From Bacillota bacterium (GTDB taxonomy: Bacteria > Bacillota > Dehalobacteriia > UBA4068 > UBA4997), in assembly GCA_017397935.1 (NCBI GenBank), contig JAFQHN010000008.1, positions 1 through 56,731 on the forward strand: a DNA stretch of 56,731 nt, read 5' to 3'. A program made the translations under genes and the position numbers. This document shows positions 21,496-27,086 of the stretch, piece after piece. The notes under the pieces were generated by a model, which saw nothing but the letters and a program-made list of their open reading frames with translations, had not been told where the DNA came from and did no database searches. Position 1 is the stretch's first letter; every line of letters starts with the position of its first letter.

Positions 21496-21969
21496 TTATT
21501 TTTGCCGGCGTTTGACCTCGGCCACCGCCAACTCATCACAGCGGTTGTTCCACGGGTTATCGGCGTGCCCCTTAACCTTATGCCAGTTGACCTTATGCCT
21601 GGCACAAACCGCCAGCAGCCGCTGCCACAAGTCCTGATTTTCCACCGGCTTCTTCTGAGAATTGCGCCAGCCGTTGCGCTGCCAGCCAACCAGCCAGTTT
21701 TTCTCCCAGGCGTTCACCAGATAAGCACTGTCGCTGTATAAATCCACCACGCAGGGCTGTTTTAAGGCCTCCAACGCCTGAATGGCAGCCATAATCTCCA
21801 TCCGGTTGTTGGTAGTGTTCTCCTCATAGCCGGAAAGCTCTTTTTTATGCTGACCAAAGCGCAGCACCGCCCCCCAACCGCCTGGGCCGGGGTTGCCGCT
21901 GCACGCACCGTCGGTGTAAATTATCACGCCGGACAAGAAATGCGGCTTATCATCAATATTTTTTTCCAT
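21496..21969 (-). CDS. rnhA: Ribonuclease HI
   Basis: Cuts the RNA strand of RNA-DNA hybrids. The four acidic residues of the type I active site are present: Asp in [16 protein letters not shown], Glu in NNRMEIMAA, Asp in YSDSAYL, and Asp in the C-terminal NNRCDELA block; the catalytic His is in [13 protein letters not shown] at 21969 gives 157 residues, the normal bacterial size. A GTG at 22002 would add 11 residues, and neither has a convincing ribosome site, so the start is uncertain. The N-terminal hybrid-binding domain of RNase H1 from some Bacillota is absent. Confidence 0.92.
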
Positions 21970-22012
21970 ATTATTATCCGCCAAAAAACTTTCAACTCCC
22001 ACTTAAAATTGA

Positions 22013-22045: not shown

Positions 22046-22074
22046 TTGACGGCCGCCTGCCCAAATGCTATAAT
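22046..22074 (+). promoter_or_regulatory. Strong sigma-A promoter upstream of lepB
   Basis: TTGACG (22046-22051), a 17-base spacer and a perfect TATAAT (22069-22074). Predicted transcript start near 22081, about 165 bases before the lepB start. Confidence 0.85.
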
Positions 22075-22080
22075 TTAAGC

Positions 22081-22119
22081 AGAAAAGCCGCTTGCCGACA
22101 TCGGTGGGTGGCTATTTTT
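22081..22119 (+). terminator. Terminator hairpin at the start of the lepB leader (attenuator or tiny RNA)
   Basis: Within 5 bases of the predicted transcript start, AGCCGCTTGCCG (22086-22097) pairs at all 12 positions (four G-U pairs) with CGGTGGGTGGCT (22102-22113) around a 4-base loop, followed by ATTTTTG. Transcription from the promoter at 22046-22074 should largely stop here unless the hairpin is relieved, leaving an RNA of about 40 bases. Confidence 0.6.
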
Positions 22120-22245
22120 GTAAAGCTGCAAATTGCAAATAAACCGTTTCTTATTATTATAGCATAAACGGCGTCCATAAATAAAGCATAACTAAGAGAA
22201 ATCACGGCATAATTTACAAAGTATTATTACGGCAGGAGGCTAACG

Positions 22246-23427
22246 GTGAACAAGCAAAAATCAAGCGGCCGCAATATGGCTGAATATCAAAATGAGCTTG
22301 GACAATACATGGATGCAACCAAGCAGCAAACCCAGGCCATAAACCGCGAGCTTAACCGCCAACAAAATTTATTCGCTGCCGCCAATGGTATGGAAGCTGC
22401 CACCAAGGAGCACCTGAAAGCCGAGCAGCAGGTGCTGAACGATTTGGAGGACCAAAGCCGCCGGGCCACATTACAGCTGGTGGCCGCCAAACAGCAGTAT
22501 GACCGCATTATGCAGGAATACAACCAAAAGCTGGAAGATGTTAAGCTGCTGCACAGCCGCATTGACCAGCAGATTGCCGATAAGGAAGGACAGCAGCGGC
22601 AGGTTAAAAAATTGTTGGCTGATTGGCAGCAGCAAAATATTTTACTGCAAAAGCAGCAGCGTACTGCCGAGCAGATTGCGGGCGGTATGCTGGATGATTT
22701 GCCGCCCCTGGAAGCTTTGCGTCCGTATCAGCCAAGTCAATCAGCTGACCAGCCTGCAAACTGCGTAAAAAGCGGCAAGAACCACGCCAACGCCGATTTC
22801 TGGGAGAAAAAGCAGCATACCTCCTTACAATTAAAGCCTCTGCCGCAGGATGAAGCAGATACCGAAAACCCACCGACCACAGAGGAAACCGCAGAGGAGC
22901 CGAAACCAAGCAAGAAGCAAACCCTGCTCAGTTATCTTATCTGCATTGGTCTGGCGGTGATGCTGGCTTTTGCGGTGCGTACCTGGGCATTGATGCCGAC
23001 CATAGTTTCGGGCACCTCCATGCTGCCCACGCTGCAGCCCTATGATAAACTGCTGACCACCCCCCTGCCCTATTGGCTGGACGAGCCTGCCCGCGGTGAT
23101 ATTGTGGTCTTTCAGCCGCCCAACGAGGCCGAAGGCGTATTTTATGTGAAGCGTGTGATTGGCCTTCCGGGTGAGAATGTACGCATTGAGGACGGCATGA
23201 TCTTCATTAACGATGTGCTGCTGCACGAGCCTTACCTTGATAATATGCAGACGGAAGGTTATATCAACACGCAGGTGCCGGTGGGCAAGATTTTTGTGCT
23301 GGGTGATAACCGCACCGTCAGCCATGACAGCCGCGACAGCGATGTGGGCTGTATTGCCTATGAGGATATTTGCGGACAGGCCGTGTGGCGCATCTACCCG
23401 TTTGAGAGCTTTGGCAGTATTGAATAA
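22246..23427 (+). CDS. lepB: Signal peptidase I with a long cytoplasmic coiled-coil extension
   Basis: Removes signal peptides from exported proteins. The catalytic part is a normal single-anchor SPase I: membrane helix at about 225-246, Ser258 in SGTSMLPT, Lys302 in YVKRVIGLPGE, then GDNR (353-356) and SRDS (362-365). Unusually, about 220 residues precede the membrane helix: a Gln/Lys/Glu-rich predicted coiled coil (about 12-145) and an acidic, Pro-rich linker (about 150-222). Typical Gram-positive SPases are 170-190 residues with only a short N-tail. GTG at 22246 has GGAGG 7 bases upstream, and the coiled coil is in frame with no internal start near residue 215 preceded by a ribosome site, so I take it as part of the protein. 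Confidence 0.92.
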   Translation: MNKQKSSGRNMAEYQNELGQYMDATKQQTQAINRELNRQQNLFAAANGMEAATKEHLKAEQQVLNDLEDQSRRATLQLVAAKQQYDRIMQEYNQKLEDVKLLHSRIDQQIADKEGQQRQVKKLLADWQQQNILLQKQQRTAEQIAGGMLDDLPPLEALRPYQPSQSADQPANCVKSGKNHANADFWEKKQHTSLQLKPLPQDEADTENPPTTEETAEEPKPSKKQTLLSYLICIGLAVMLAFAVRTWALMPTIVSGTSMLPTLQPYDKLLTTPLPYWLDEPARGDIVVFQPPNEAEGVFYVKRVIGLPGENVRIEDGMIFINDVLLHEPYLDNMQTEGYINTQVPVGKIFVLGDNRTVSHDSRDSDVGCIAYEDICGQAVWRIYPFESFGSIE

Positions 23428-23465: not shown

Positions 23466-24578
23466 ATGCCCGAAAATAAAATTTTAACCCCTGATACGGG
23501 TGCACGGCTGCAAAAATTGCGCACGGCCATGCAGCATAACAATTTTGATGCGCTGGTTATCAGCAACCCCAAAAATATTTTTTATTACTCCTCCTTCGCA
23601 GGGCAGGACAGCTATTTGCTGGTGACTCTTAACCGTTTGTTCCTGCTCTCTGATGGGCGTTTTATTGCGCAGGCTGCCGATGAAGCCCCCAATGCCGAAT
23701 TTATCTGCCGCCAAAACGGGCAGACCTTGGGAGATTTGTTGTTATCGGCGCTGCCGGTGGACGCCGCTAAGCTGGGCTTTGAGGGCTATCACCTGACCTA
23801 TGCCGAGTGGGCTGATCTGGCCGATTTACTGCTTATCCACCGCCCCGATTTGCTTTTTGAGGATTGCGGTAATCTGCCGCTTGTCCCCCGCCTGGAAAAG
23901 GACGAATATGAGCTGGCCTGCCTGCAAAAATGCGGCGAGATTGCCGACCAAGCGCTGGCACAGGTGCTGCCGCAAATCAAAGCCGGCATGACCGAGAAGC
24001 AGATTGCCTGCCTGTTGGAGCAAACCATGCAGAATATGGGCGGCGAGGGCACCAGCTTTACCACTATTGTGGCCGCAGGTGCCAACAGCGCCAAACCGCA
24101 CGCCATTCCCTCGGATTATGCGGTGCAGCCGGGCGATTTGCTTACGCTGGATTTTGGCTGCATTTATCGCGGTTATTGCGGTGATTGCACCCGCACCGTG
24201 GCCATTGGCGAGGTTGATGAGGAAAAGCTGGCGGCATATCAGCTGGTGCGGCGGGCGCAGCAGCAGGGTGTGGAGCAGATAAAACCCGGCATGACCACCG
24301 CCGAGGCTGACCGTCTGGTGCGGCAAATCATTGACGAGGCCGGTATGGGGCAGTATTTTTCGCACTCGCTGGGGCATGGTGTGGGGCTGGATATTCACGA
24401 AACACCATCAGTTGGGCCGACCGGCAGCATGGTTATCACGCCGGGACAGGTCATCACCGTAGAACCGGGCGTGTATATCCCCGGGCGGTTTGGTCTGCGT
24501 ATCGAGGACTCCTGCATCGTGACCGAGGACGGTTTGCAGCCGCTGACCCACTTTGAGCATGACTTGATCAAACTTTAA
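23466..24578 (+). CDS. Xaa-Pro peptidase (M24 family, aminopeptidase P-like)
   Basis: Cytoplasmic metallopeptidase that cleaves N-terminal residues next to proline. The 370-residue protein has a creatinase-type N-terminal domain (about 12-140) and the pita-bread catalytic domain with all five metal ligands: Asp229 and Asp240 (TLDFGCIYRGYCGD), His304 (GHGVGLD), Glu333 (TVEPGVY) and Glu347 (LRIEDS). It is 38 bases downstream of lepB with GGAGG before ATG 23466, so it is probably co-transcribed. In most Bacillota this gene precedes efp; here a PBP gene follows instead. Confidence 0.92.
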   Translation: MPENKILTPDTGARLQKLRTAMQHNNFDALVISNPKNIFYYSSFAGQDSYLLVTLNRLFLLSDGRFIAQAADEAPNAEFICRQNGQTLGDLLLSALPVDAAKLGFEGYHLTYAEWADLADLLLIHRPDLLFEDCGNLPLVPRLEKDEYELACLQKCGEIADQALAQVLPQIKAGMTEKQIACLLEQTMQNMGGEGTSFTTIVAAGANSAKPHAIPSDYAVQPGDLLTLDFGCIYRGYCGDCTRTVAIGEVDEEKLAAYQLVRRAQQQGVEQIKPGMTTAEADRLVRQIIDEAGMGQYFSHSLGHGVGLDIHETPSVGPTGSMVITPGQVITVEPGVYIPGRFGLRIEDSCIVTEDGLQPLTHFEHDLIKL

Positions 24579-24606: not shown

Positions 24607-24655
24607 AATCACCTTATTAAATTGAGCAGGACTTAATTTAAGGGGTGATTTTTTT
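24607..24655 (+). terminator. Terminator overlapping the ribosome site and start of the PBP gene
   Basis: AATCACC (24607-24613) pairs with GGTGATT (24644-24650), and inside it TTAAATT (24617-24623) pairs with AATTTAA (24635-24641); a run of seven T follows. The 3' arm contains the AAGGGGTG ribosome site and the T-run abuts the TTG start of the next gene. Confidence 0.6.
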
Positions 24656-26321
24656 GCGGCAAGAGCAGGCTTTGCGGAGGGTTTCGGCGGTGCTGCTGGG
24701 GGTTTTTGCGGCGGTTTTGCTGCGGCTTTGGTGGGTAAACGGCTGGCAGGCGGCAGATTATGTGGCGCTGGCCCAAAATCAACGGCTGCTGACAGTGGCC
24801 GAGCGGCAATTTGAGCGCGGAGATTTTCTGGACCGACACGGCGAGGCGCTGACCAACCGGCCGGAGAAGGTGCTGTTGGTCTTCCCCACCCTGCTGCGGC
24901 AGGATGAGCAGCACAGCCCGGCTTATTATCAGACTTTTCTGGCGGCGCTGCTGCAAACGCAGGGCTTGCCGCCGACCAATAATTGGCGCAGCAAGCTGGC
25001 GGATGATAAGCCTTTTGTGCTGGCGCGCGGCTTGACGGACGCACAGGCGGCCGAGATTCAGCAGCGGCTGGGCGGACATTATGGGGTTTTTGTGCCGATT
25101 TACCGTCCACGCTACGCCGAGAATTCTCCGCTGGCGCACCTGCTGGGTTATGTGGGTGAGGCCGAAAATACGGGCAAGTGCGGTTTAGAGCAGCAGTATG
25201 ATGCGATTTTGCAGGGACGGCCCTCGGTGCAGATTGCGGCGGCGGTGGATGAACGGGGGCGTCAGGCAGCCGACCAACTGCGCCAACTGCCGCCCGGCGG
25301 TGCGGATGAGGCGCTGAATGTGCGGCTGACCGTTGATTACAGCTATCAGCAGATTTGTGAGCAGGCCATGCAGGGCAAAAACGGCGCGGCGGTGCTGCTG
25401 GATGCCCAAAACGGCGATGTTCTGGCGATGGTCAGCTCTCCCAATTTTGACCAAAGTGTGGGCCAGCCTGCGGCCGACGGTGACATTTATCTGAACAAAG
25501 CGCTGGCGTATTATCCACCGGCCTCGGTTTTCAAAATTGTGCTGGCGGCGGCAGCCTTGGAGGAAAATATCAGCCTTGACGGGGATAGCAGGCCTTTTGT
25601 GTGCAGCGGCAGCATTACCCTGCCCAACGGGCACAGCGTAAACTGCTGGCAGACCGACGGCCACGGCGAGGAAAATCTGGCGGCGGCGCTGGCCAACTCC
25701 TGCAACCCGTACTTTGTGGCGCTGGGGCAAAAGCTGGGCGGCAAAAAAATTGCGGAATATGCCTGGCGGCTGGGTTTAACAGAGCAAATTTTACGGGGAT
25801 ATGATGTAAATTCCGCAAATATGCTGGATTTCTCATCTGCTGTGCCGGGAGATGTTGCCAATGTGTCGATTGGCGAGAAAGGCATCCGCACCACGCCGCT
25901 GATGATAGCCCGAATGTTGGCAGCTGTTGCCAACGGCGGCAAGCTGCCCGAAGCACGGCTGGTGATGAGTCTGGAAACGGCAGGCGGCCAAACCGTACAA
26001 AGCATTGAAAGTGCCGAACCCCGTCAGGTCATCAGCAGCCAAACCGCTCACAAACTGGCAAATATGCTGCGCGGCGCGGTGCAGCAGGGCACGGGCCGCC
26101 CCGTAAACAGCCCCATCATCAGCATTGGCGGAAAAACCGGCACCAGCCAGCATTTTGGGGTGTGGTTTGCCGGTTTCTTCCCGGCCGATAAGCCGCGCTG
26201 GACGATGGCGGTATATTTGGCGGACGGCACCAGCGGCGGCGGCGATGCAGGTGCGGTCTGCCGGGAGGTGGCCGAGAAGCTGGCGCTGTTGGAGGATATT
26301 GCCCACCAAAGCAGCGTATAA
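24654..26321 (+). CDS. Penicillin-binding protein, class B transpeptidase
   Basis: Cross-links peptidoglycan peptides outside the membrane. An N-terminal anchor (about 8-27) is followed by a dimerisation/pedestal domain (about 40-220) and the transpeptidase domain with SVFK (nucleophile Ser291, Lys294), SCN (349-351) and KTG (494-496). No PASTA domain and no glycosyltransferase domain, so a PBP2/SpoVD-like class B enzyme of 555 residues. TTG at 24654 is preferred (AAGGGGTG 6 bases upstream); GTG 24645 lies inside that ribosome site. It lies directly before sigK, so a role in sporulation is possible but unproven. A terminator overlaps its start region. Confidence 0.9.
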   Translation: MRQEQALRRVSAVLLGVFAAVLLRLWWVNGWQAADYVALAQNQRLLTVAERQFERGDFLDRHGEALTNRPEKVLLVFPTLLRQDEQHSPAYYQTFLAALLQTQGLPPTNNWRSKLADDKPFVLARGLTDAQAAEIQQRLGGHYGVFVPIYRPRYAENSPLAHLLGYVGEAENTGKCGLEQQYDAILQGRPSVQIAAAVDERGRQAADQLRQLPPGGADEALNVRLTVDYSYQQICEQAMQGKNGAAVLLDAQNGDVLAMVSSPNFDQSVGQPAADGDIYLNKALAYYPPASVFKIVLAAAALEENISLDGDSRPFVCSGSITLPNGHSVNCWQTDGHGEENLAAALANSCNPYFVALGQKLGGKKIAEYAWRLGLTEQILRGYDVNSANMLDFSSAVPGDVANVSIGEKGIRTTPLMIARMLAAVANGGKLPEARLVMSLETAGGQTVQSIESAEPRQVISSQTAHKLANMLRGAVQQGTGRPVNSPIISIGGKTGTSQHFGVWFAGFFPADKPRWTMAVYLADGTSGGGDAGAVCREVAEKLALLEDIAHQSSV

Positions 26322-26399
26322 AAAGCAATTTGCGGCATTATTTGGCAAAAACCCGCATAAAAATCAGTAATTTTTAAGCATAAGCGGAGGTTGCAAATT

Positions 26400-27086
26400 A
26401 TGTGGGAATTGCTGTATCTTTTTGGCACGCTGGTGCCGGGGCTGGGGTTTCTGCTGGGATATCTTAACAGCAACGCCTTCCCCAAGCCGCTTTCGGCCGA
26501 GGAAGAACGGGCGGCGCTGCTAGCACTTGGGCAGGGTGATGAACAGGCGCGGACGCTGCTTATCGAGCACAACCTGCGGCTGGTGGCCCATATTGTCCGC
26601 AAATTTGACAGCGCCGGCTTTGATAAGGAGGATTTAATTTCCATCGGCACTATCGGCCTGATCAAAGCCATCAACACCTTCAACCCCGAGAAAAACATTC
26701 GCCTTACCACCTATTCCGCGCGCTGTATCGAAAACGAGGTGCTGATGTTTCTGCGCGCCACCAAGAACAGCCGCACCGAAATATCGCTGAACGACCCTGT
26801 TGGCGCCGACAAAGAGGGCAATCAAATCACCCTGCTGGAAACGCTGGGCACCGACGGCGGCGAAATTCTGGACGAGGTGGAGAGCCGTGACGATGAGCGT
26901 TTGCTGCGGCTGAGCCTTTCTGATTTATCGCCCAAGGAGCGTTACATTGTAATTAAACGGTATGGCCTGGACGGCGGCGAGGAGCGAACCCAGCGCGAGA
27001 TTGCCAAGGAGCTGGGCATAAGCCGCAGTTATGTATCCCGCATTGAGAAAAAGGCTCTGCAAAAGCTGCACAAGGCCTTTGATTAA
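26400..27086 (+). CDS. sigK: Pro-sigma-K, sporulation sigma factor
   Basis: Late mother-cell sigma factor. The 228 residues begin with a hydrophobic pro-sequence (MWELLYLFGTLVPGLGFLLG) like that removed from B. subtilis pro-sigma-K by SpoIVFB, then NSNAFPKPLSAEEE at the processing region, sigma region 2 (HNLRLVAHIVRKF, DLISIGTIGLIKA) and region 4 (REIAKELGISRSYVSRIEK). The gene is continuous, with no skin-like element. GGAGG lies 9 bases before ATG 26400. It is near-diagnostic for a spore former, although some asporogenous relatives retain it. Confidence 0.95.
   Translation: MWELLYLFGTLVPGLGFLLGYLNSNAFPKPLSAEEERAALLALGQGDEQARTLLIEHNLRLVAHIVRKFDSAGFDKEDLISIGTIGLIKAINTFNPEKNIRLTTYSARCIENEVLMFLRATKNSRTEISLNDPVGADKEGNQITLLETLGTDGGEILDEVESRDDERLLRLSLSDLSPKERYIVIKRYGLDGGEERTQREIAKELGISRSYVSRIEKKALQKLHKAFD

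Follow-up and report, generated by a model that had tools for sequence, protein, structure and literature searches.

A type I signal peptidase with a long cytoplasmic coiled coil and a conserved linker motif in an order of Bacillota

The stretch of DNA analysed here (the window) is a complete 56,731-nt contig (JAFQHN010000008.1) of the 1.59-Mb genome of a gut bacterium of the Bacillota (class Dehalobacteriia, order UBA4068, family UBA4997), and at 22246–23427 on the forward strand it carries a gene for a type I signal peptidase of 393 residues with an N-terminal coiled coil. Among named organisms, Candidatus Avidehalobacter gallistercoris and an uncultured Peptococcaceae bacterium are the closest (53–55% protein identity), and NCBI places both in the Peptococcaceae. 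Computation established the open frame and its start, the domain content, the predicted helix with its heptad pattern, the selection acting on the gene, the spread of the long form through the order and its orthology to a tailless form. An earlier sequence-only reading had described the enzyme part as ordinary, with Ser258, Lys302 and one membrane anchor, and this was borne out by matches to Pfam Peptidase_S26 (PF10502, residues 229–383, E=5e-38, 131 bits against a cut-off of 22.9) and NCBIfam sigpep_I_bact (TIGR02227, E=1e-40, 139 bits against a cut-off of 47). The S26 catalytic domain was placed at residues 252–393 (22999–23424, +) by these domain profiles and by alignment to solved structures, the best matches being the signal peptidases I 4nv4, 4me8 and 4wvg, with the conserved boxes aligned to 4nv4. 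Alignment to solved signal peptidases also located the catalytic Ser258 (SGTSMLPT; 23017–23019, +) and Lys302 (YVKR; 23149–23151, +), which together with the GDNR..SHDSRD box are invariant across the genus, and this intact active site suggests that the domain cleaves signal peptides. A single transmembrane anchor spans residues 223–247 (22912–22986, +), where AlphaFold2 predicts a helix and the Pfam S26 match begins at residue 229.

The S26 matches above cut-off, the Ser/Lys dyad, the conserved boxes and the single N-terminal anchor place the protein among the type I signal peptidases of the Gram-positive type (S26A), alongside Bacillus SipS/T/U/V and Staphylococcus SpsB. Signal peptidase I has been described with a short cytoplasmic N-terminus (PMC12445088), whereas here the anchor is preceded by about 222 cytoplasmic residues that hold both the coiled coil and a conserved linker motif; a short N-terminus is not needed for catalysis, and the long one is no bar to membership. 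Residues 1–225 gave only chance-level Pfam matches, and a search of the same genome for this N-terminal region elsewhere returned one weak match (E=0.02), interrupted by a stop. No coiled-coil signal peptidase I was found in the literature searched.

The long extension is in frame with the peptidase and opens at a well-placed GTG, as the sequence-only reading had it: 393 codons are open from this GTG, and a Shine-Dalgarno sequence (AGGAGG, 22234–22239, +) lies 6 nt upstream. The same reading had set the extension correctly at residues 1–225 but had ended the feature there, while the gene runs on to 23427. It had also named two findings that would undo the fusion, a translation start near residue 215 and a coil encoded separately in homologues, and neither was encountered. 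Start codons in this frame lie at residues 1, 11, 22, 49, 63, 67, 79, 89, 123, 124, 148, 152 and 158, only the first of them with a Shine-Dalgarno sequence, and the next is residue 238, within the anchor. Since residues 159–237 contain no in-frame start codon, a short-tailed product starting near residue 215 is impossible on this DNA, and the extension is therefore translated together with the enzyme. In several relatives the extended start is likewise preceded by a good Shine-Dalgarno sequence, every complete relative of the order that we examined has the extension in the same frame, and a search for a separate coiled-coil open reading frame (ORF) in the relatives found none. By these comparisons the extended gene is neither an assembly error nor a one-off, and a real fusion with a coiled coil is strongly supported by its order-wide conservation, purifying selection, 3.5-residue periodicity and predicted helix.

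The first part of the extension, residues 11–145 (22276–22680, +), is predicted to form a continuous helix with heptad periodicity, which would measure about 20 nm if straight. AlphaFold2, run on a three-sequence alignment and with modest overall confidence (mean predicted local distance difference test score (pLDDT) 62, predicted template modelling score 0.29), gave a helix at residues 11–145 (pLDDT about 72–94 per block), disorder at 146–222 and a helix at 223–247. The hydrophobic profile of nine genus members over the ungapped block 14–147 had its best period at 3.51 residues, and the power of the genus profile at period 3.5 exceeded that of all 10,000 shuffles. Of the seven heptad positions, d had the lowest column entropy (0.60 bits, p=0.00065 by permutation) and so was the most conserved, and the coil includes the invariant patches RQQ, QKQQ and WQ. 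Periodicity at 3.5 with p<0.01 was found in 9/9 genus members and in 9/15 other long tails. The region thus has both the hydrophobic periodicity and the helical prediction of a heptad coiled coil. A salt-bridged single alpha-helix (SAH) domain was also considered and rejected, because charged residues make up only 23–30% and Gln 13–19% of the coil, and a heptad core is present.

Between coil and anchor lies an acidic, proline-containing linker (residues 146–222, 22681–22911, +), predicted to be disordered (pLDDT mostly <50). Within it, column entropy singled out a linear motif, HANADFWEKKQHTSLQL, at residues 180–196 (22783–22833, +), which follows the pattern HANAxFWxxKxH. Over 15 columns the motif HANADFWEKKQHTSL averages 0.52 bits of entropy, which brings it close to the catalytic boxes in conservation (0.23–0.44 bits), against 0.85 bits for the anchor and about 1.7 bits for the remaining linker. 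The FW core is also kept in another genus of the same family (TGFWQN in L065). The segment looks like a short linear docking motif and is a possible docking site.

Codon comparison within the genus showed purifying selection on the coil, of a strength similar to that on the catalytic domain. In the closest pair (L008/L009) all 16 changes in the coil fall on third codon positions and leave the protein sequence unaltered; in the catalytic domain, eight changes fall on first or second positions. Coil omega was 0.00–0.10 in four of the five pairs and 0.40 in the fifth, with values for coil and catalytic domain of 0.04 and 0.06 (L006/L007), 0.09 and 0.12 (L006/L008), and 0.10 and 0.14 (L002/L003, in which the linker reached 0.32). 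The nonsynonymous rate was higher in the linker than in the coil in 5/5 pairs. These patterns show an extension that is translated and protected.

This paralogue was matched in 35/35 genomes of the order that were searched, nearly all of which also have a second, short signal peptidase. The cytoplasmic part measured 215–484 residues in 24 of 25 measurable complete genes from five families, a count that leaves out two genes cut by contig ends (L014, L017) and one readable only in pieces (L065); further long copies were read in the order beyond these 25. One contig (L062, G021:C230:2700-8500) carries two long coiled-coil type signal peptidases close together, with open frames of 377 and 647 residues. 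In a subgroup of family f2 (L010, L013, L015, L016, L021 and L024) the extension opens with a different shared motif, Y.LPYDN-like. Outside the order, two surveys of 299 genomes of this phylum, each limited to about the best 150 matches, listed no comparable coiled-coil form. Frames of >300 residues outside the order were seen, among the matches listed, only in family f51 and the genomes G166 and G142. Like the protein described here, the f51 signal peptidases (L051-L054, L056, L057) have an extended N-terminal cytoplasmic part and one anchor, but their independent extension is Gly/Ala/Pro/Glu-rich and apparently disordered instead of a helical coil, and they belong to a different S26 clade. 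The G166 frame was rejected as an extended peptidase, as it is a GC-rich open frame, probably non-coding upstream, in which the likely starts leave almost no tail; the upstream part of the 309-residue G142 frame was not closely examined.

Orthology was traced through the divergent neighbour, a gene for ribonuclease HI (RNase HI; 21496–22002, −; PF00075, E=4e-46), which marks the orthologous locus and is adjacent in 12/12 neighbourhoods of the order examined. Three outgroups of the same class (G035, G037, G039) have near RNase HI a signal peptidase of 174 residues with no coil and only about 15 residues before the anchor; its neighbours are a D-Ala-D-Ala carboxypeptidase (in G037 between the short signal peptidase and RNase HI), a LUD-domain protein and RNase HI. 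The tree joins the long forms with these short RNase HI-linked orthologues (100/100) and sets apart as another paralogue clade (100/100) the rplS-linked short signal peptidase, the second copy in these genomes, which is likewise a type I enzyme with S26 boxes but lies at a different locus and has no coil. A single origin of the long form was not rejected (p-AU 0.265), so that it is compatible with the tree but not established by it.

The enzyme is one of the cell's two type I signal peptidases, with an S26 domain outside the membrane that would cut signal peptides by the ordinary Ser/Lys route. Its cytoplasmic tail consists of a predicted coiled-coil helix of about 135 residues, followed by a flexible linker with the HANAxFWxxKxH motif that leads to the anchor. 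The coil would self-associate as a parallel dimer or higher oligomer, the motif and the conserved coil patches would bind a cytoplasmic or membrane-associated partner, and the peptidase would be clustered and held at particular export sites, for example a subset of translocons or a zone of wall growth, instead of diffusing freely. That the coil self-associates, that there is a partner and that localisation is affected are our inferences. On the proposal as a whole, a self-associating coil that together with the motif clusters the peptidase or docks it at a partner or membrane zone, our judgement is evenly balanced. The suggestion in the sequence-only reading that the extension oligomerises or tethers the peptidase would be compatible with these data in both parts, as the heptad core with conserved d positions fits oligomerisation and the linker motif fits tethering; the partners it had proposed (Sec, the divisome or sporulation) found no support. 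A precedent for a positioned Gram-positive signal peptidase I is Staphylococcus aureus SpsB at the septum, for which the positioning mechanism is still open (PMC11898559).

Several observations weigh against this scaffolding reading. The evidence points to no particular partner, the tail of L028 is only 87 residues long and lacks a coil, and two f4 genes have no heptad periodicity. No homology was detectable between the coils of family f1 and those of f2 or f4 (probability <3%), while f2 subgroups match one another at 97% probability. In the pair L002/L004 the coil had the higher omega (0.40, compared with 0.23 in the catalytic domain), and across all nine genus members its columns also vary more (entropy 1.17, compared with 0.77 in the catalytic domain). 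Because coils of different families show no detectable homology and two f4 genes lack the heptad periodicity, any sequence-specific function may be particular to a genus or family, and the undetectable homology of f1 coils to those of f2 or f4 makes both separate origins and very fast divergence possible.

The coil may alternatively do nothing but self-associate, so that the peptidase would gain avidity or stability as a dimer or larger oligomer and no separate partner would be involved. We consider this somewhat unlikely: the heptad core with its conserved d positions would be explained, and coils that differ in sequence between families while mostly keeping the heptad pattern are what it leads one to expect, but the strongly conserved FW motif in a fast-evolving linker and the invariant RQQ, QKQQ and WQ patches of the coil would be left unexplained. 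More doubtful is a tail that binds the export machinery directly (SecA, the ribosome and signal recognition particle (SRP), or SecYEG-associated factors) and hands emerging precursors to the peptidase. Signal peptidase works beside the translocon, and a tail on the cytoplasmic side with a long reach and a flexible linker would suit such a role; however, no Sec gene is found among the annotated neighbours, the second, short signal peptidase manages without a tail, and none of the tests here ties the tail to Sec. Improbable, too, is a helical spacer peculiar to the lineage that has little function of its own. The variation of the extension in length and sequence across the order (215–484 residues), the undetectable coil homology between families and the coil-less L028 might indicate such a spacer, but it is disfavoured by the selection data, with coil omega of 0.00–0.10 in 4/5 pairs, and by the conservation of the motif. 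An artefact, whether two sequences joined in assembly or a wrongly placed start where translation really begins near the anchor, is hardly credible: nothing was found in its favour, and it is refuted at the sequence level by the same-frame fusion in many independent assemblies and by the stretch 159–237 without a start codon.

In this gut bacterium and its whole order, one signal peptidase I has a long conserved cytoplasmic rod where described forms have almost nothing. It is possible, although we would sooner doubt than assert it, that throughout the order one of the two signal peptidases has become a scaffolded enzyme, in which a coiled-coil rod and a docking motif gather signal-peptide processing at a defined partner in the cytoplasm or a defined site on the membrane, a mode of control absent from the literature searched for signal peptidase I. 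The rod with its candidate docking motif and the tailless orthologue in sister families provide a natural comparison, which allows one to ask whether processing during export is organised in space, and what organises it.

The genes downstream form a string that is conserved in the genus, with an M24 aminopeptidase of the Xaa-Pro type next (23466–24578, +) and a class B penicillin-binding protein (PBP2-like; 24645–26321, +) as third gene. The aminopeptidase and PBP2-like transpeptidase give a weak hint towards wall growth, which is not shared by the other families examined. On the other side, a WG-repeat protein of 617 residues (PF14903; 19564–21417, −) is kept next to RNase HI in genus neighbourhoods. 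Whole-genome searches did not detect DivIVA (PF05103) in the bacterium itself, and in nearly all genomes of the order they gave either no match or one below cut-off. It was also undetected in the class outgroups searched, so that its absence is uninformative either way, and loss of DivIVA was dropped as a correlate of the long form.

Just downstream of the PBP2-like gene lies an intact gene for the sporulation sigma factor SigK (26391–27086, +; TIGR02846 over cut-off), and Spo0A is present in the genome. Despite this, sporulation control of the signal peptidase gene was rejected, as sigma-E/K-like sites are not conserved upstream. Ahead of the signal peptidase gene, at 22046–22113 (+), there is a strong sigma-70-like promoter (TTGACG-17-TATAAT, 11/12) with a TG ahead of its second hexamer. 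A terminator-like hairpin of 12 pairs with a T run follows no more than about 12 bases further on. This arrangement has no Rfam match to a known leader RNA, and may possibly represent an attenuator leader or a small RNA. Sigma-A-like −10 boxes are common upstream of the signal peptidase gene across the order.
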